From: Acidimicrobiia bacterium
GTDB lineage: Bacteria; Acidobacteriota; Vicinamibacteria; Vicinamibacterales; UBA2999
Assembly: GCA_016871255.1 (NCBI GenBank)
Contig: VFZH01000025.1
Coordinates: 1 to 36,130, forward strand
DNA: 36,130 bases
Direction of reading: 5' to 3'
Under the pieces are notes generated by a model, which was given only the letters and a program-made list of their open reading frames with translations, was not told the origin of the DNA and did no database searches. The first letter of the stretch is position 1. Every line of letters starts with the position of its first letter. A program made the translations under genes and the position numbers. Positions 6,412-15,465 of this stretch are shown here, in pieces.

Positions 6412-7701
6412 GTGGCGATGACATCTCCATCGGTTCCATCGGGCCAGTGGACGCTGGGCGAGTTCGACGTCGATCCGGCAGGCATCACGCTGATGCCGGC
6501 GGACACGACTCGAAGGGGCGCGGGTGACCATGCGCCGGTCGTGAGCCTGGTGTCCCGCATCCTCGCGTCAGCGGTGCAGAAGGGCGCGAGCGACATCCAC
6601 ATCGAGCCCTACGATCAGGTGCTTCGGGTCCGGTTTCGCATCGACGGCGTGCTGTACCCGGTGCTCCGTCCGCCGGTGGCCCTGCGCGACGCGATCGTGT
6701 CGCGCATCAAGATCATGGCGCACCTCGACATCGCCGAGCGCCGCCTGCCGCAGGATGGCCGGATCACCGTTCGCGTGCGGCAGGGCAGCTCGGTCCGCGA
6801 GGTGGACTTCCGGGTGTCGTGCCTGCCCACCCTTGGCGGCGAGACGGTCGTGCTCCGGCTGCTGGACCGCGCGGCGCTGCTGCTCGATCTGCAGCAACTG
6901 GGGTTCGAGGCCGAGGCGCTCGCGCGGTACGAGGCGGCGATCGCCCGGCCGTGGGGCCTGGTGCTCGTGACCGGCCCGACCGGGAGCGGCAAGACCAGCA
7001 CGCTGTATGCCTCGATCGCCCGGCTCGACACGCCGGGGACCAACATCCTCACGGCCGAAGATCCGGTGGAGTTCAACCTGGCCGGCGTGAACCAGCTCCA
7101 GGTGCGGGACGGCATCGGCCTGACCTTCGCCGCCGCGCTGCGCAGTTTCCTGCGCCAGGACCCGAACGTCATCCTCGTTGGCGAGATCCGCGACACCGAG
7201 ACGGCCTCGATGGCGGTCCGGGCCGCCCTCACCGGGCACCTGGTGTTGTCGACGCTCCACACCAACGACGCCCCCGGCACGATCACGCGGCTGACCGACA
7301 TGGGGGTCGAGCCGTACCTGGTGTCCAGCTCACTGGCGCTGGTCTGCGCACAGCGGCTGGTCCGGCGGATCTGTCTCCGGTGCGCGGAGCCGGAGGAGGC
7401 GTCGCCGGGCGTGTTGGCGGCCGCCGGATTCGGTCCCGAGGACGCGGCGGCGGTCGAACTGCGTCGGGGGCGCGGGTGCGAGTCTTGCAACCGCACCGGG
7501 TTCAAGGGCCGCGTGGGGCTCTTCGAGGTAATGGAGGTCACCGACCACCTGCGCGAGATGGTGGTGGCGGGCGCCTCGCCCGTGCAGATTCGCGCGCGCG
7601 CCGTCGAGGCCGGCATGCGGACGCTGCGCCAGAGCGGCCTGGCGAAGGTGCGCGCGGGGATGACGACGCTGGATGAAGTGGTGCGCGAGACGATGGCCTG
7701 A
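6412..7701 (+). CDS. pilB: type IV pilus extension ATPase, PilB/GspE family (short form)
   Basis: A 429-residue hexameric secretion ATPase that would power pilin polymerisation at the inner membrane. Visible motifs are the N2 domain opening ASDIHIEP (about residues 59-66), Walker A GPTGSGKT (188-195), Asp box AEDPVE (215-220), Walker B ILVGEIRD (254-261) and His box LSTLHTND (279-286). Two CxxC pairs (C321/C324 and C356/C359) form the zinc site that separates PilB/GspE from PilT. Typical PilB is about 560 residues; here the N-terminal MshEN/N1 domain is absent and the N2 domain begins within 50 residues. Upstream sequence is another gene, so this is a real short form, not an obvious frameshift. 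The start is GTG 6412 or ATG 6418; the GGGG near 6408-6411 could serve the latter. Confidence 0.9.
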   Translation: MAMTSPSVPSGQWTLGEFDVDPAGITLMPADTTRRGAGDHAPVVSLVSRILASAVQKGASDIHIEPYDQVLRVRFRIDGVLYPVLRPPVALRDAIVSRIKIMAHLDIAERRLPQDGRITVRVRQGSSVREVDFRVSCLPTLGGETVVLRLLDRAALLLDLQQLGFEAEALARYEAAIARPWGLVLVTGPTGSGKTSTLYASIARLDTPGTNILTAEDPVEFNLAGVNQLQVRDGIGLTFAAALRSFLRQDPNVILVGEIRDTETASMAVRAALTGHLVLSTLHTNDAPGTITRLTDMGVEPYLVSSSLALVCAQRLVRRICLRCAEPEEASPGVLAAAGFGPEDAAAVELRRGRGCESCNRTGFKGRVGLFEVMEVTDHLREMVVAGASPVQIRARAVEAGMRTLRQSGLAKVRAGMTTLDEVVRETMA

Positions 7702-7706
7702 AGGAG
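7701..7706 (+). promoter_or_regulatory. ribosome binding site fixing the pilT start
   Basis: AAGGAG lies eight bases before the GTG at 7715. The frame is open back to 7673, inside pilB, but this strong site and the family's usual N-terminus make GTG 7715 the start. Confidence 0.75.
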
Positions 7707-7714
7707 CGTGCGAC

Positions 7715-8812
7715 GTGACGCTGGCGGACCTGCTCGTACAGACCGTGGCGATGAACGGCTCGGACCTGCACCTGACGGAGGGGTCGCCGCCCCGGGTGCG
7801 GGTGGACGGCGAGCTGCAGGTGCTGCGCGAGGCACCGCTGACGGCGGCGGACACCAGGGACCTCGTGTTGAGTGCGCTCACCGATGCGCAGCAGGCTCGC
7901 CTCCAGTCGGTGATGGAACTCGATGCCGCGTGTCAGGTGGAGGGGCTGGGCCGGTTCCGCTGCAACGCGTTTCACCAGCGCGGCACGCTGGCGGCGGTCT
8001 ACCGCCACATTCCTGACCAGGTGTGCTCGCTGGCGGAGCTGGGGTTGCCGCCGGTCCTCTCGGACCTCGCTCGGCGGCCGAGGGGGCTGGTGCTGGTCAC
8101 GGGCCCGACGGGCAGCGGGAAGTCCACCACGCTCGCGGCGATGGTCAGCCAGATCAACGGGGAGCGGCGGGGACACATCCTGACGATCGAGGATCCGATC
8201 GAGTTCGTGCACGCGCACGGGCAGAGCGTGGTCAACCAGCGCGAGGTCGGGCGCGACACGCCGACGTTCACGGCAGCGCTCCGGGCGGCGCTGCGCGAGG
8301 ATCCCGACGTGGTGCTGGTCGGCGAGATGCGGGATCTCGAGTCGGTGGAGGCGGCGTTGCGCATCGCGGAGACAGGCCACCTGACGCTGGCCACGCTGCA
8401 CACCAGCTCCGCCGCACAGACCATCACGCGGATCATCGACGTGTGTCCTGCCGGACAGCAGGAGCGCGTCCGGACGCAGGTGTCACTGGTCCTCGAGGGT
8501 GTGGTGTGCCAGGCGCTGCTCCCGCGGGCGGGTGGCGGGCGGGTGGCGGCCCTGGAGGTGCTGATCCCGACACCGGCCATCAGGAACCTGATTCGCGAGA
8601 ACAAGGTGCACCAGATCTACGCCGCCATGCAGGCGGGACGCGGGCGGTCCGGGATGCAGACGATGAACCACGCGCTGGCCGCACTCTGCCGGCGCGGGTC
8701 GACCACCCGGGACGCCGCGGTCGCCGTGTCGTCGCTCCCCGAGGAGCTGATCGCGATGCTGGCCCGGCCGGAGGCCGTCGCGGGACGTTGGGCGGCAGCC
8801 CGCGAGCCGTAG
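7715..8812 (+). CDS. pilT: type IV pilus retraction ATPase PilT
   Basis: A 365-residue ATPase of the PilT/PilU branch, which depolymerises the pilus and drives twitching. The N-terminal PAS-like region opens MNGSDLHLTEGSPPRVRVDG (about residues 13-32). Motifs: Walker A GPTGSGKS (130-137), Asp box TIEDPIEF (157-164), Walker B VVLVGEMRD (199-207) and His box LATLHTSS (225-232). The helix LSLVLEGVVCQALLPR-like segment near 257-271 is the usual PilT stretch. It lacks the CxxC zinc pairs of the upstream ATPase. The length matches PilT (about 345-370). The start is GTG 7715, thirteen bases after the pilB stop, so both motors share one transcript. Having both motors together argues for a retractable type IVa-like pilus rather than a type II secretion system. 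Confidence 0.93.
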   Translation: MTLADLLVQTVAMNGSDLHLTEGSPPRVRVDGELQVLREAPLTAADTRDLVLSALTDAQQARLQSVMELDAACQVEGLGRFRCNAFHQRGTLAAVYRHIPDQVCSLAELGLPPVLSDLARRPRGLVLVTGPTGSGKSTTLAAMVSQINGERRGHILTIEDPIEFVHAHGQSVVNQREVGRDTPTFTAALRAALREDPDVVLVGEMRDLESVEAALRIAETGHLTLATLHTSSAAQTITRIIDVCPAGQQERVRTQVSLVLEGVVCQALLPRAGGGRVAALEVLIPTPAIRNLIRENKVHQIYAAMQAGRGRSGMQTMNHALAALCRRGSTTRDAAVAVSSLPEELIAMLARPEAVAGRWAAAREP

Positions 8813-8823
8813 GCCCTCTCTCC

Positions 8824-10041
8824 ATGCCCCTCTTCGCCTACGCCGGCCGGACCCGTTCTGGTGAGCGCGTGCAGGGGGAGCGGACTGCCGACTCGATCGA
8901 TCTGGCTGTTGCCGCGCTCCGGGGCGAGGCGATCGTCGTCACGCGAATCAACGCGGTGGCCCGGCCTCCACGAAACATCCTGGCGGTGTGGCGCGTCCGC
9001 CAGGTCGCTCCACGCACCCTGGCGCAGTTCACGCGCCAGTTGTCCGTGATGATCGACGCGGGCCTGCCGCTGGTACGCGCGCTCGACCTTCTCGCGGACC
9101 AGGAGACCGATCCGCGCTTCGCGCGCGTGATCGTGGCCGCCCGCGCCGACGTGGAGCGTGGGCTGTCGCTCGCAGACGCGCTGCGGGGGCACCCGGACGT
9201 ATTCGACGCGCTGTTCACCGGCATGGTGGCGGCCGGCGAAGCCGGCGGCGTGCTGGATGTCATCCTGGCGCGGCTGGCCGGACACGTCGAGGGCGCGGCC
9301 AGGCTGCAGAGCCGCGTCCGGGCGGCGATGGCGTATCCGGCGCTGGTGCTCGGGATGGCCGGCGTCGTGATCGTCGTGGTGCTCTGGACGGTCGTTCCGG
9401 CGTTCGCCGGGCTCTTTGCCGGCCTCGGTGCTGAACTCCCGCTGCCGACGCGCGCCGTCATCGCGCTCGGCGAGAGCGTCGTGCGGCTGTCGCCCGTGGC
9501 GCTCGTGGGCACCGTGGCCCTCCTCGTCGCGTGGAAGCGCTGGTACCGTTCGGATCGCGGCCGGCGGTTCGTTGACGGCGCCCTGCTCCGGACGGCCGTG
9601 GTGGGACCGCTCCTGCGGAAGGTGGCGGTGGCCAGGTTCTGCCGGACGCTGGGGACGCTGCTGGCCTCCGGCGTGGCGATTCTGGACGCCCTCGACATCA
9701 CCGCCCGGTCGGCGGGGAACGCCGTCGTCGAGGCGGCCGTTCGGACCGTGCGGGCGCGGATCGAGCGGGGCGAGTCGCTGGCCGGGCCGATCGGCGAAAC
9801 CGGGGTCTTTCCATCCATGGTGGCGCAGATGGTCGGAGTGGGCGAGGTGACCGGCGCGCTCGACACGATGCTGGTCCGGATCGCGGATGTCTTCGAAGAC
9901 GAGGTGGACGTGGCGGTGGCAGGCCTGCTGACGCTGCTCGAGCCGCTGATGATCGCGGTGCTCGGGGTCGTGGTGGGCGGCATCGTGATCGCGATGTACA
10001 TGCCGATTGTCGGCCTGATTGCCGGGCTGGCGGGTACTTGA
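8824..10041 (+). CDS. pilC: type IV pilus inner-membrane platform protein PilC/GspF
   Basis: A 405-residue platform protein that couples the ATPases to pilin subunits. The opening MPLFAYAGRTRSGERVQGE is the standard PilC/GspF N-terminus. Two homologous T2SSF domains follow: the first begins near FTRQLSVMIDAGLPLVRALD (about residues 70-89), the second near FCRTLGTLLASGVAILDALD (about 271-290). Each has the 'G..L..AL' helix pair and a GE.(G/T)G motif (AAGEAGGVLD about 138-147, VGVGEVTGALD about 337-347). Hydrophobic helices lie near 177-200, 220-240 and 375-398. The start is the ATG at 8824, eleven bases after the pilT stop. Length and order fit the family exactly. Confidence 0.93.
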   Translation: MPLFAYAGRTRSGERVQGERTADSIDLAVAALRGEAIVVTRINAVARPPRNILAVWRVRQVAPRTLAQFTRQLSVMIDAGLPLVRALDLLADQETDPRFARVIVAARADVERGLSLADALRGHPDVFDALFTGMVAAGEAGGVLDVILARLAGHVEGAARLQSRVRAAMAYPALVLGMAGVVIVVVLWTVVPAFAGLFAGLGAELPLPTRAVIALGESVVRLSPVALVGTVALLVAWKRWYRSDRGRRFVDGALLRTAVVGPLLRKVAVARFCRTLGTLLASGVAILDALDITARSAGNAVVEAAVRTVRARIERGESLAGPIGETGVFPSMVAQMVGVGEVTGALDTMLVRIADVFEDEVDVAVAGLLTLLEPLMIAVLGVVVGGIVIAMYMPIVGLIAGLAGT

Positions 10042-10116: not shown

Positions 10117-10638
10117 ATGACGACGAGCAGGACGGCACAGGCGGGGTTCACCCTCATTGAACTGCTGATCGTGGTGGCGATCATCGGTGTGATCGGGGCG
10201 ATGGCCATGCCGCAGTACGGCAGGGTGCGCATGTCGGGCAACGAGACGGCGGCCATTGCGTCGCTCCGGGCGCTCGGTGCCGCGCAGGCGTCCTTCTACG
10301 GGAGCTGCGGTGGCCAGGGCTTCGCGCCCTCGCTCCAGGCGCTCACCACGCCGCCCCCCAACAGCGCCGTGGCGTTCGTGTCCGAGGACCTCGCGTCAGG
10401 CACCAAGCAGGGCTACTCGTTCACCATCTCGGACGGCGGCGCCCCCCAGGTGCTGCCGCAGGCGTCCACGTGCAACAACGTCGCGAACTCGCACGCGGGG
10501 TACTTCATGAGTGCCCAGCCGCAGGACCCCGGCTCGTCGGGGGTGCGCTACTTCGCCACGAATCACACCGGCGTCATCAAGGAAAGCAACGACGCGATCA
10601 CGGTGGCGAACTTCGCCTCGGCCCGCGTGTCCCAGTAG
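10117..10638 (+). CDS. pilA: type IV major pilin (PilA-like)
   Basis: A 173-residue prepilin. The leader of ten residues ends AQAG and is followed by FTLIELLIVVAIIGVIGAMA, with Gly at -1, Phe at +1 and Glu at +5, the canonical type III signal cut and N-methylated by the prepilin peptidase. The mature protein has the single N-terminal helix and a globular head with exactly two cysteines (SCGGQ and STCNN), which could form a disulfide enclosing about 72 residues. I chose ATG 10117 because AGGGAG lies eight bases upstream; the open frame from 10075 would give an abnormally long leader. It sits 75 bp after pilC, leaving room for its own promoter, although I found no convincing sigma-54 site. The order beside pilC and pilD supports the major subunit. 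Confidence 0.9.
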   Translation: MTTSRTAQAGFTLIELLIVVAIIGVIGAMAMPQYGRVRMSGNETAAIASLRALGAAQASFYGSCGGQGFAPSLQALTTPPPNSAVAFVSEDLASGTKQGYSFTISDGGAPQVLPQASTCNNVANSHAGYFMSAQPQDPGSSGVRYFATNHTGVIKESNDAITVANFASARVSQ

Positions 10639-10774
10639 CGCGACCGCTGCCAGCCCTGATGTGCCCCCGCCGCGGCAAGCCCGTGGGGCCGGCCGATGGG
10701 GTGGCGATCTATCGCAACTCCTGCATGGGACACATCCCCGTAGTGAAACGAAACGGAAGGGAGCAGGACGCTGG

Positions 10775-10791
10775 CTGCCAGAGAGTGGCAG
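10775..10791 (+). terminator. weak hairpin downstream of pilA
   Basis: CTGCCA and TGGCAG form a perfect 6-bp stem around a GAGAG loop, followed by GGGTGGTTT. It could be a modest terminator or mRNA-stabilising hairpin that lets pilA be expressed above its neighbours. The rest of the 268-bp gap between pilA and the VKOR gene holds nothing I recognise. Confidence 0.35.
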
Positions 10792-10906
10792 GGGTGGTTT
10801 CTGCGTGGTCATTTCTTCACCGCGAAGTAGACTAGGCGGCGTCTAGGCCACAGGTGACCGGGGTCCGGAGTCGCCTCGGGACAGGTGGCCGCTTCCGCAG
10901 GGTCCC

Positions 10907-12160
10907 ATGAACAGAACCCGCGTTCTGCTGCTGCTGTTCTCGGCCATTGCCCTCGCCACCTCGGTCGCGTCCCTCTACGTCCACTACCAGCTGCTGGCCG
11001 ACAGCTCCTACACCAGCTTCTGCGACGTCAGCGCCACGGTCAGCTGTGAAGCCGTCTATCTGAGCGAATACGGTGCCATCGGCGGCGTGCCGGTCGCCGT
11101 CGGCGGCGTGATCTGGGCCGCGGCGGTCATGCTGCTCGTCTACCGGGGCATGCGCGAGCCGATGTCGGCGGTGGCGGCCAACGTCGCCGAGTACGTGTTC
11201 GTGCTCTCGGTCATCGGCCTCGCCGCCGTGTTGTACCTCGGCTACGCCTCGTACTTCGTCCTGCAGAAGGTCTGCCTCCTCTGCGTGGCCACCTACGTCG
11301 GCGTCTTCGGCGTGTTCTTCGTGGCGGCCGGGGCGACCACCATGCCGTTCGGCACGCTGCCGGCACGGCTCTTCAGGGACCTGCGCGGTCTCCCGTCCAG
11401 CCCGGCGGCCCTCGTCCTGGCGCTCGTGTGGCTGGTGGGATCGGGCGCCCTGGTCGTGCTCTTCCCGGGTGAGGAGGCGGGTACGACATCGGGCGAGGCT
11501 GCGGCGGAGGTCGAGTCCACCGAGGACGCGGGCGGCGGCTCCACGCAGGCGGCGGCTCCCGCGGCGGGCGGCATCACGGATCAGCAGCGCGCGGAGTTCG
11601 GCCGCTGGTATTCCGCCCAGCCGTACGTGCCGGTCGCCGTCGAGGCCGACGGCGCGCAGGTGGTCGTCGTCAAGTTCAACGACTACCAGTGCCCACCGTG
11701 CCGGCAGACGTTCCTGAGCTACAAGCCGGTGCTCGACAAGTTCGCCGAGTCGCATCCCGGCGCCGTGAAGTTCGTGACGCGGGACTTCCCGCTCGATCCC
11801 GAGTGCAACTCCGGCGGAGGCCATACGGCAGGCTGCGAGGCCGCGGCGGCGGTGCGCATGGCCCGCGACGCGGGCCGCGCGGACGCGATGGAGGACTGGC
11901 TGTTCAACAACCAGCCGTCGATGTCGCCGGATCTCGTCCGCCAGGGCGTGCAGCAGGTGGCCGGGGTCGCCGACTTCGACACCCGCTATCCGAAGGTGCT
12001 CGAGCTGGTCAGAGCCGACGTCCGCTACGGCCAGACGATCGGCGTGAACCGCACGCCGACCTTCTTCATCAACGGCCGGAAGATCGAAGGTGCGCTGGAG
12101 CCGCAGTTCTTCGAGATGGCCATCGAGTTCGAGCTGGCGCGCCAGGGCGGCACGCCGTGA
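10907..12160 (+). CDS. VKOR-DsbA fusion, disulfide-bond-forming membrane enzyme
   Basis: A 417-residue fusion of a vitamin K epoxide reductase-like domain to a DsbA-like thioredoxin. The VKOR part (about 1-145) has four helices, the loop cysteines C39 and C47 (CDVSATVSC) and the redox centre CLLC (C123/C126) in the last helix. A further helix (about 167-187) and an Ala/Gly/Glu linker (about 188-225) lead to the thioredoxin part, with active site CPPC (C262-C265) and the cis-Pro region NRTPTFFING near 385. Known VKOR homologues pass electrons from DsbA-like partners to quinone; the fusion makes this intramolecular. It acts in the periplasm. Located between pilA and pilD, it is a good candidate for oxidising the paired cysteines of the pilins encoded here. 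It starts at ATG 10907. Confidence 0.9.
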   Translation: MNRTRVLLLLFSAIALATSVASLYVHYQLLADSSYTSFCDVSATVSCEAVYLSEYGAIGGVPVAVGGVIWAAAVMLLVYRGMREPMSAVAANVAEYVFVLSVIGLAAVLYLGYASYFVLQKVCLLCVATYVGVFGVFFVAAGATTMPFGTLPARLFRDLRGLPSSPAALVLALVWLVGSGALVVLFPGEEAGTTSGEAAAEVESTEDAGGGSTQAAAPAAGGITDQQRAEFGRWYSAQPYVPVAVEADGAQVVVVKFNDYQCPPCRQTFLSYKPVLDKFAESHPGAVKFVTRDFPLDPECNSGGGHTAGCEAAAAVRMARDAGRADAMEDWLFNNQPSMSPDLVRQGVQQVAGVADFDTRYPKVLELVRADVRYGQTIGVNRTPTFFINGRKIEGALEPQFFEMAIEFELARQGGTP

Positions 12161-12163
12161 GGC

Positions 12164-12934
12164 ATGCCGCCCTTCGGACCTGATCTCGCGCTTGCCGCTG
12201 CAGCCGGCCTGGCGGTCGGCAGCTTCCTGAACGTCGCCATCCACCGTCTGCCGCTGGAGGCGTCCGTCGTGGCTCCTCCCTCCAGCTGTCCCGCGTGCGG
12301 CCGCTCCCTGCGTTGGTTCGAGAACATTCCCGTAGCGAGCTGGGTGGCGCTTGGAGGGCGGTGCCGCACGTGCCGTGCGCCGATCGCCGGCACGTATCCG
12401 CTCGTCGAGCTGGCCACGGCGACCCTCTTCGTGGCTGCGTGGGCGGTGTACGGGTGGCAGCCGCTGCTGCTGGTGCGCCTGGCGTTCGCTTGCGCGATGG
12501 TCGTGCTGTTCGTCGTGGACCTGAGGCACTACCTGCTGCCCGACGCGATCACGCTGCCGGGGATCGTCGCCGGCCTTGCCTCCAGCGCGTTTGTGCCCCC
12601 CGGGCTTCTGCCATCGCTCATGGGCGCGGCGCTGGGAGGCGGGCTGCTGCTGGCCCTGGCGGCGACATGGCGCCGGGTGCGCGGCGTCGACGGCCTCGGG
12701 ATGGGGGACGTGAAGATGCTGGCGATGGTCGGCGCCTTCCTCGGGTGGCAGCAGATGCTGGTCACCTTGTTCCTGGCGTCAGTCGCTGGCTCGCTGGTGG
12801 GGATCGGCCTGATCGTGGCCCGGCGCGGGAACCTGCAGTCGCGACTGCCGCTCGGCAGCTTCCTCGCCGCGGGCGCCCTCGTCGCCAGCCTCGCGGGCGA
12901 CCGGCTGCTCGATCTGTACCTCTCCCTCTACTGA
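12164..12934 (+). CDS. pilD: prepilin peptidase / N-methyltransferase (A24 family)
   Basis: A 256-residue membrane protease that removes prepilin leaders and methylates the new N-terminus. The N-terminal domain starts GLAVGSFLNVAIHRLP (about residues 15-30) and has the zinc-type cysteines C42xxC45 and C67xxC70. Catalytic aspartates are D119 (VVDLRHYLLPD) and D182 (GLGMGDVK), the GxGD signature. About seven or eight hydrophobic helices are visible. Length is normal (250-290). The ATG at 12164 is three bases after the stop of the VKOR-DsbA gene, so the two are coupled. It would process all four prepilin-like proteins encoded nearby. Confidence 0.94.
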   Translation: MPPFGPDLALAAAAGLAVGSFLNVAIHRLPLEASVVAPPSSCPACGRSLRWFENIPVASWVALGGRCRTCRAPIAGTYPLVELATATLFVAAWAVYGWQPLLLVRLAFACAMVVLFVVDLRHYLLPDAITLPGIVAGLASSAFVPPGLLPSLMGAALGGGLLLALAATWRRVRGVDGLGMGDVKMLAMVGAFLGWQQMLVTLFLASVAGSLVGIGLIVARRGNLQSRLPLGSFLAAGALVASLAGDRLLDLYLSLY

Positions 12935-13070
12935 CCTGCCAGGGCCACCGGGTACGCAGTTCCTGCGCCCCTGCGGTCACGCCGACCCGGCAGAAACTGC
13001 ACCCTCCATCGCAGCACCTGCCCGAAACCGGCGTGTGTGATTGAGGCCCGCCACTTGCACCGTGTGGGAC

Positions 13071-13460
13071 GTGCGCCCACGGCCTGCTGCCGGTCTCTCA
13101 CTGGTCGAAGTGCTCGTTGCGATGTTCCTGGCGCTGGCAGGGCTCCTGGGGATCGCCAGGGTGCTGGCGCCGACGCTCCTGCTGTACGCACGTGCTGCAG
13201 GATCGGGCGCCGCCGTGGCGCTGGCCGAGAGCCGGATGGAATCGCTGCGCGTGCAGCCGCCACCCGAGCCGCCGTGGCCGGACCACGCGGCCTGTCTCGC
13301 TGCGGGCGTGGCGCCCTATGTCGACGAGCCGCGCGCCGGCGTGAGCCGGCGCTGGTGCTGGCAGGCAGGCCCGGCTCCCGGAACGGCGGTCCTGACGGTG
13401 CGCGTGACCCGGGCCGGTCACATGCCAGTCGATCTCACGACCGTGGTGGCGTCGTGGTAG
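13071..13460 (+). CDS. minor pilin, PilV/GspI-like
   Basis: A prepilin-like protein of about 129 residues. The leader RPRPAAG is followed by LSLVEVLVAMFLALAGLLGI, with Gly at -1 and Glu at +5, so it is a substrate for the peptidase encoded just upstream. The motif 'SLVEVLVA' is typical of PilV/GspI. The mature part has exactly two cysteines (AACLAAG and RRWCWQ). I prefer GTG 13071 because it gives a usual eight-residue leader; GTG 13062 or TTG 13041 are also in frame and no clear ribosome binding site decides. Its stop overlaps the next gene's start by seven bases. Such proteins prime pilus assembly at the tip. Exact orthology to PilV versus GspI cannot be settled by eye. Confidence 0.8.
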   Translation: MRPRPAAGLSLVEVLVAMFLALAGLLGIARVLAPTLLLYARAAGSGAAVALAESRMESLRVQPPPEPPWPDHAACLAAGVAPYVDEPRAGVSRRWCWQAGPAPGTAVLTVRVTRAGHMPVDLTTVVASW

Positions 13461-14122
13461 GCGAGGGTTGTGGCAGGTCCCGCTCGCGCGGCGGCGCCGG
13501 GTTCACGCTCGTCGAAGTCCTGATTGCAGCCGCCTTGACGGTGGCGGTTCTGGGTGCAGCGCTGGGTGTGTCGGCGGACGTGCGCCGCGCGCTGTCGCAC
13601 GCGATCGACGACGCGGCGGTGGAGCAGGAAGCGCGCGCGGCCCTGGCCTGGATCGCGCGGACGGTGTCGGTGGCCGGCAGCAACCCGTACGGCGCGGATC
13701 TCACACCGTGCGCGGCTGACGCGACGCCGTTCGAAGCCCTGCGTCTCGACGCGGATGGCAACGGCGTGGACGACGACGTGCGCGTGCAGGCGGACGTGAA
13801 CCCGCCGAACGGCATGCTGGCCGGCCGGGCCGGCGAGTGTGACGAGGCGGGCGAGGACGTCACGATCGCCCATGACGCGGGGGCGCGGACGCTGACGCGG
13901 CGTGACGCCGCCCGCGACGCTGCGCCGGTGGCGCTGACCAGCGCGATCGTGACCGGTCTCGCCTTCACCGGCTTCGACGCCGCCGGAGCCCCGACGCGTG
14001 CGTTTCGCGAGATCGCGCTGATCCGCGTCGCGCTGACCACCGAGTCGCGGGCGCGGCACAGCGTGCTCGGCGGACCGGTCCGGGCCACGCACACGATGGA
14101 CGTGCATCTGAGGGTTCGGTGA
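13454..14122 (+). CDS. minor pilin, PilW/GspJ-like
   Basis: A 222-residue prepilin-like protein. A 16-residue leader ending GGAG is followed by FTLVEVLIAAALTVAVLGAA, with Glu at +5. The segment after the helix (EQEARAALAWIARTVSVAGSNPYG is its span, about residues 57-80) is the PilW/GspJ pattern where an early Arg/Leu-rich helix leads to an 'AGxNP' turn. The mature domain has exactly two cysteines (LTPCAA and AGECDE); one more lies in the leader. The Asp-rich stretch DADGNGVDDDVRV near 96-108 resembles a calcium-binding loop, which is an inference. The GTG at 13454 overlaps the preceding gene and the stop overlaps the next gene's GTG by four bases, indicating tight translational coupling. Confidence 0.82.
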   Translation: MVGEGCGRSRSRGGAGFTLVEVLIAAALTVAVLGAALGVSADVRRALSHAIDDAAVEQEARAALAWIARTVSVAGSNPYGADLTPCAADATPFEALRLDADGNGVDDDVRVQADVNPPNGMLAGRAGECDEAGEDVTIAHDAGARTLTRRDAARDAAPVALTSAIVTGLAFTGFDAAGAPTRAFREIALIRVALTTESRARHSVLGGPVRATHTMDVHLRVR

Positions 14123-15465
14123 GGCAGCAGACCGGAGTGGCCCTCGTCACTGTCGTGCTCCTGCTCGGCGTGCTGGGCGTGCTCAGCGCCGCGCTGGTGC
14201 TCGGGGCGATCACCGACACGCTGGTCGCGCGCAACCTGCGCTCGGCGTCCGAGGTTCGCGCCGCCGCGGATGCGGGCGTCAGCCACGCGCTGGCGCTGGT
14301 GATGCCGGCGTTGAACCGCTGGCAGGAGTCCGGGTTCGTCTCGCCAGGCGCCGCGATGTCGGCCCTGCTGGCCGGTCCCGACGGCTCGCCCGGTCCTGGA
14401 GCCGCCGCAGCCGACAACGGCAGCCTCGAGGCGCTGGGAATCCCGCGTCCCCCGGCTCGCCTGGCGCTGGGCTCGCCCGGAATCGAATACGAGGTGCAGC
14501 TCGTCGATGACGATGATCCGCAACGTGGGCTGGCGCTCGACTCGAGCGAAGTCGCGCGCATCGGCGAGAACGGGTTGGACAGCGTGGACGCCAACACGCG
14601 GATCGCGGTCCGTGCCACCGGCTACGGCCCCGCCGGAGCACGGGCGTTTGCCGAGGCCACGCTCGGTCCCGCCCCCGCGCCGGCGCTCGTCACGGCCGGG
14701 GCGCTGACGCTTGGCGATGCCGTCACGGTGACCGGCTCGCACGGGAGCGTTCACGTCAACGGCGACCTGGTGGTGGCTGGCGGTGTGTCGGTGGCGGGAG
14801 ACGTGACGGCAACTGGCCAGCTGGCGGTGGCGGCTCCGGTCGCGATCGGGGGCAGGGCGGAAGGCGGCGTCCCGTCCGTGGCGATCCCGGAGACCCTGCC
14901 GCTGGTGTACCGGCACACGGCAGATGTCGTGCTGGGTGCGGAGGGCCTCATGCGGTCGGCGGCCGGGTCCGTGCTGTGCGATGCCAGCCTGGTCCCGGAT
15001 GCCTGCCCGGGGTGGCTCTTCTCCGCACCGGGATGGGTGCAGCAGGGCGCCGTGGCCGGCGGCGTGTACTACGTCGAAGGGAACCTCGATTTGGCCGGGG
15101 TGCTCGGGTCGGTTGCGGCGCCGGTGGCGCTGACCGCATTGGCGGACGGCTCGATCCTGGTCACCGGATCGCTGACGCTGCAGCCGGCGCTGCCGCGTGT
15201 GTTGCTGGTTGCCGGCGGCGACCTCGTCGTCAGTGGAAACCTGGTTGCTGACCGTGAGGAAGCGCTCGTGGCTGCTCGCGGCGGGGTCCTGATCGATGGG
15301 ACCGCCCGCATGGCCGGACAGGTGGTAGCCGAGGGGGCTCAGGGTGTCGGCTCACTGGCGGCAGGCAGCGCCGTGACCGGCTCGCTCGCCCTTCGATACA
15401 CCGGCCTCGTCGGCCATGCGGGTGATCGCGGTGTGGTTGTCGCCGGGTGGCGATGGGAGCCCTGA
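14119..15465 (+). CDS. PilX/GspK-like pilus assembly protein with Gly/Val-rich repeats
   Basis: A 448-residue protein. The start MRQQTG is followed by VALVTVVLLLGVLGVLSAAL, resembling the prepilin signal of PilX/GspK, which likewise lacks Glu at +5. ASEVRAAADAGVSHALA (about residues 42-58) is the usual PilX helix. From about residue 190 it changes to short repeated beta strands of the type 'LxVxGxVxVxGDVxxxG' (for example HVNGDLVVAGGVSVAGDV), and again near 325-420, suggesting a right-handed beta-helix like bactofilins or the DUF7305-type domain. It has exactly two cysteines, LCDAS and DACPG, eleven residues apart. It starts at GTG 14119 within a GTGA overlap with the preceding gene. It may cap the pilus tip and act in adhesion; that is inference. 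Confidence 0.75.
   Translation: MRQQTGVALVTVVLLLGVLGVLSAALVLGAITDTLVARNLRSASEVRAAADAGVSHALALVMPALNRWQESGFVSPGAAMSALLAGPDGSPGPGAAAADNGSLEALGIPRPPARLALGSPGIEYEVQLVDDDDPQRGLALDSSEVARIGENGLDSVDANTRIAVRATGYGPAGARAFAEATLGPAPAPALVTAGALTLGDAVTVTGSHGSVHVNGDLVVAGGVSVAGDVTATGQLAVAAPVAIGGRAEGGVPSVAIPETLPLVYRHTADVVLGAEGLMRSAAGSVLCDASLVPDACPGWLFSAPGWVQQGAVAGGVYYVEGNLDLAGVLGSVAAPVALTALADGSILVTGSLTLQPALPRVLLVAGGDLVVSGNLVADREEALVAARGGVLIDGTARMAGQVVAEGAQGVGSLAAGSAVTGSLALRYTGLVGHAGDRGVVVAGWRWEP

Follow-up and report, generated by a model that had tools for sequence, protein, structure and literature searches.

The window analyzed here, a 36,130-nucleotide stretch of contig VFZH01000025.1 from a genome of the order Vicinamibacterales, contains a gene cluster for a type IVa pilus in which pilB, pilT, pilC, pilA, pilD, and minor pilin genes lie together, all on the forward strand. 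A pilB-like ATPase gene of the GspE family (positions 6412 to 7701; PF00437, E = 6e-137) is followed by a pilT-like ATPase gene (7673 to 8812; PF00437), pilC for the inner-membrane platform protein (8824 to 10041; PF00482, E = 2e-61), and pilA for the major pilin (10117 to 10638), whose product has an N_methyl motif (PF07963) and a start matching the NCBIfam PilA_Myxo model. Next comes a gene for a fusion of VKOR and DsbA domains (10907 to 12160; PF07884, E = 2e-19; PF13462, E = 4e-17; PF01323, E = 4e-9), and 4 bp past its stop starts pilD, encoding the prepilin peptidase (12164 to 12934; PF06750 and PF01478). The cluster continues with a PilV-like minor pilin (13041 to 13460; N_methyl slightly under the cut-off and a weak TIGR02523 match), a PilW-like minor pilin (13457 to 14122), and a PilX/GspK-like pilin (14119 to 15465), the last assigned only from its location and N-terminal sequence (PilX_N match, E = 0.14). 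The gene coordinates and Pfam matches bear out the original prediction that a VKOR-DsbA fusion sits between pilA and pilD. Promoter and terminator scans of the window were uninformative.

The fusion protein contains eight cysteines: four in the VKOR domain (C39, C47, C123, and C126), two in a CPPC thioredoxin site (C262 and C265), and an extra pair in the DsbA domain (C300 and C310). In an alignment of 22 diverse homologues all eight were invariant. The VKOR assignment is supported by its PF07884 match together with the four invariant cysteines, and the DsbA assignment by the C262-P-P-C265 site and by T383-P384 at the cis-Pro position, of which P263, T383, and P384 were likewise invariant. Relatives in the PDB were the VKOR-like 6wv9 and DsbA chains. 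Fusions of VKOR with DsbA or thioredoxin, as in Synechococcus and a Clostridium sp., have the same domain order, with four VKOR cysteines and a thioredoxin CXXC (PMC12453122). In such enzymes DsbA oxidizes substrates while VKOR re-oxidizes DsbA and reduces quinone, and the Clostridium sp. VKOR-DsbA complements an Escherichia coli dsbA dsbB double mutant (PMC12453122). The fusions of Vicinamibacterales differ in that their DsbA domain has a second pair of invariant cysteines, and membership in a pilus cluster is not described for the known fusions (PMC12453122).

We searched for VKOR regardless of location, first across the phylum and then in 100 genomes of the order, 93 of which contained it. 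G221 was rejected as a VKOR-free genome, its gene being interrupted by a contig end. Flanking sequence was fetched for 69 close relatives of the fusion, 66 of them scorable upstream and 68 downstream. As linkage represents one ancestral event, the genome counts that follow are not independent: in 59 of 66 loci the distance from pilA to the downstream fusion was at most 400 bp; pilH came next after the fusion in 58 of 68, and in 5 others, the window among them, pilD followed immediately. The usual gene order was therefore pilA, VKOR-DsbA, pilH-pilI-pilG, pilD. An identical order recurred in a separate set of 80 named records, almost all labelled Acidobacteria and overlapping in part with these genomes, where pilC was usually 4 to 6 kb upstream of the fusion and pilA within about 150 bp. 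By contrast, no pil genes were found near distant VKORs of the same genomes (0 of 8 fetched loci), nor were any recognized around VKOR loci retrieved from elsewhere in the phylum, in other orders and classes. The fusion is thus not found away from pil genes equally often, and the 59/66 adjacency set against 0/8 rules out co-location by local chance.

The adjacency of the fusion and pilA persisted at a median identity of 45%. Rank correlations of distances between the fusion and PilD, PilH, and PilC were 0.51 to 0.61, and those among the latter three were 0.46 to 0.56; judged by these distances, the fusion tracks PilD, PilH, and PilC as closely as they track one another. Comparative sequence data thus strongly support a link between the fusion and the pilus.

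In most relatives, pilH, pilI, and pilG, which were named by resemblance to the myxobacterial cluster and encode a repeat-like protein along with an ABC transporter, separate the fusion from pilD. All three are absent between these genes in the window (12160 to 12164), and pilI and pilG queries gave no match in the window genome. In the excerpted description of the Myxococcus xanthus type IVa cluster, the gene set is comparable (pilA, pilGHI, and pilD, with pilGHI as the ABC transporter) and no VKOR or DsbA is mentioned (PMC6060248); relative to that description, the window cluster lacks pilI and pilG and does not have the myxobacterial arrangement of pilGHI between pilA and pilD. The fusion was nonetheless still in place at the loci missing pilHIG, namely the window and G199, G393, G364, and G370.

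We then considered the cysteines of the pilins. In the window translations, each of the four mature pilins contains exactly two, as originally predicted: C54 and C109 in PilA, 67 and 88 in PilV, 70 and 113 in PilW, and VLCDASLVPDACPGW in PilX. The leader peptides of PilV and PilW contain further cysteines, which processing removes. Two cysteines, no more and no fewer, are present in 141 of 145 distinct PilA sequences from the order; 3 others have three and 1 has none. An alignment of 53 PilA proteins placed the cysteines in only three columns (54, 70, and 109/110 in mature window numbering), and in the larger set the commonest pair was 54 with 110; 18 proteins had 70 with 110, and two had 54 with 70. 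Conservation of the PilA pair on this scale is more than chance would give. A pair that moves among three positions, stays paired, and once vanishes as a pair fits an intramolecular disulfide, as does the presence of exactly one pair in 141 of 145 proteins, almost always at two of these three positions. In the predicted PilA fold (pLDDT 96.6), C54 lies immediately past the long helix; a PDB fold search returned weak pilin matches only (best E = 0.08) and no close solved structure. Proteobacterial type IV pilins have a head stabilized by one DsbA-made disulfide; the dsbA and dsbB genes there are general ones not known to be linked to pil genes, and the oxidase used is DsbB. Outside the order, PilA-like proteins were taken from 30 loci; most had zero or one cysteine and some had two to six, and such a pair is lacking in most of those from other orders, where the pil-linked fusion was not seen.

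Conservation of the pairs in the minor pilins was uneven. The PilW-like pair was kept in clear homologues, one or both columns being shifted in some, and within these alignments it too appears to be conserved beyond chance. PilX homologues had two, four, or more cysteines that aligned only partly, and the PilV pair was missing from mature homologues and is private to the window genome. The expectation that the pairs of all four pilins would be conserved was therefore rejected: it holds for PilA and for clear PilW homologues, in part for PilX, and fails for PilV.

Taken together, these data suggest that the fusion works as a self-contained membrane enzyme for quinone-linked disulfide formation and is now a fixed part of the type IVa pilus cluster of the order, with pilins as its main but not exclusive clients, a reading we consider probable. 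The DsbA domain would oxidize PilA as it leaves the Sec channel, forming a disulfide that would join the end of the alpha-1 helix to a loop of the head, and it may also oxidize the cysteine-bearing minor pilins; the VKOR domain, judging from its family, would then re-oxidize DsbA and pass the electrons to quinone. We infer that the window fusion acts on the window PilA in this way. Pilin folding and the enzyme appear to be evolutionarily tied, because the gene lies beside pilA and PilA almost always has two cysteines. Since pilins are abundant, they are probably the main clients and those that keep the enzyme under selection. The fusion probably has other client proteins too, because searches of about half of the pil-linked genomes turned up no second enzyme of this type.

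This last observation also speaks for a general disulfide oxidase that merely sits in the pil cluster, with pilins as some of many clients and its location a frozen ancestral gene order. We regard this as the most credible alternative, although clearly less probable than the reading above. The fusion is the only VKOR, with DsbB not found, in 30 of 66 pil-linked genomes, where it would have to serve every client. DsbB occurs in at most 25 of the 100 genomes of the order, an upper bound with 17 partial matches, most of them within reading frames of 490 to 700 residues. Previously described VKOR-DsbA fusions have a general role and can stand in for both E. coli DsbA and DsbB (PMC12453122), and G175 retains the fusion with a cysteine-free PilA, along with a PilW-like pilin with four cysteines. 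Persistence of the adjacency at 45% median identity, and where pilHIG is missing, argues against this alternative, as does G376, in which DsbA alone, with an N-terminal membrane anchor, occupies the spot of the fusion (L103, 9336 to 10052) and a full-length DsbB is encoded elsewhere. By sequence, G376 represents a natural replacement of the VKOR part by DsbB, with DsbA remaining beside pilA. Cysteine parity lent a general oxidase no support, as exported proteins of two genomes in which the fusion is the only oxidase found showed no excess of even counts (28 even, 31 odd; cytoplasmic proteins, 85 to 102), but with crude gene calling and signal-peptide rules this count is too weak to be decisive.

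A fusion dedicated exclusively to pilins would account for the pil linkage and the fixed PilA pair, and the window genome (243 contigs, 99.8% complete) would suit it, since its single VKOR is the pil-cluster fusion and a separate DsbB and DsbA pair on contig 17 could do other work; another DsbA-like protein is encoded on contig 20. We nevertheless consider exclusivity improbable, as in many other genomes the fusion is the only oxidase found, no specificity feature was seen in the enzyme, and close copies are unlinked in G347 and G400, with a third unlinked case in G390. The PilA pair and the enzyme were also not lost together: besides G175, the coupling is broken in G253 (94% complete), where three PilA copies carry the pair, no gene lies between pilA and pilH, and matches to VKOR-DsbA, VKOR, DsbB, and DsbA-like proteins were all absent. 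The original proposal of a pilus-dedicated rather than housekeeping enzyme thus stands as regards linkage (59/66 versus 0/8) and is not supported as regards exclusivity; a separate general oxidase exists in the window genome, and none was found in 30 of the 66 pil-linked relatives. That the pilin cysteines instead serve metal binding, inter-subunit links, or a reversible redox switch whose state the enzyme keeps or resets, functions of which cysteine pairs are capable, is very improbable, because PilA has exactly two cysteines drawn from three positions and no further conserved cysteine or histidine among its nearly invariant positions, which fits an intramolecular disulfide.

A stronger form of the favored reading would make the fusion an actual component of pilus biogenesis that meets nascent PilA at the membrane beside PilD, so that fibre assembly would depend directly on the quinone pool; we hold this to be an unlikely extension. 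A related system is found in Actinomyces oris, in which VKOR re-oxidizes the DsbA-like MdbA needed for pilus assembly and electrons pass to menaquinone (PMC5478893). The likeness lies in a VKOR and DsbA-like pair linked to pili, but the A. oris pili are sortase-assembled Gram-positive structures, the two proteins are separate, and MdbA is essential and general (PMC5478893). VKOR-DsbA fusions and VKOR-dependent pili are thus each known, whereas fixed residence in a type IV pilus cluster appears to be new; among open-access papers we found no report of a VKOR inside such a cluster. Disulfide-making enzymes are usually regarded as general housekeeping factors. The order studied here, which comprises many families of Acidobacteria from soil and water, has kept the fusion in its pilus cluster along with a major-pilin cysteine pair that is nearly invariant, and so provides a natural setting in which to ask how specialized an oxidative folding enzyme can become. 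It also raises the question of whether pilus production in these abundant and mostly uncultured bacteria is limited by respiration through the quinone redox state.

Several further observations were made during this analysis. Tandem pilA genes, two or three per locus and almost all encoding the cysteine pair, lie directly upstream of the fusion in several relatives (e.g., L043, L053, and L105) and upstream of pilH at L101. DsbB-like matches of ∼80 residues inside reading frames of roughly 500 to 700 residues (e.g., G377:C449 and G349:C96) could possibly represent a DsbB fusion or an unrelated membrane protein, and in other orders of the phylum VKOR domains occur within reading frames of 700 to 1600 residues (e.g., G019:C105:6024-6404, L092). 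The acidobacterial fusion gene or its cluster also turned up in public bins labelled Acidimicrobiia, Bifidobacterium breve, Woeseiaceae, or Cyanobacteria (L159, L188, L206, L209, L212, and L218), which are probably mislabelled or mixed. Finally, a non-prepilin membrane protein encoded on contig 23 of the window genome (about 11.9 to 12.6 kb; L262, 1300 to 1990) has a PilA-like head domain at its end, including the PilA cysteine pair (ACGNG ... ACNGT), so that a pilin head serves here outside the pilus.
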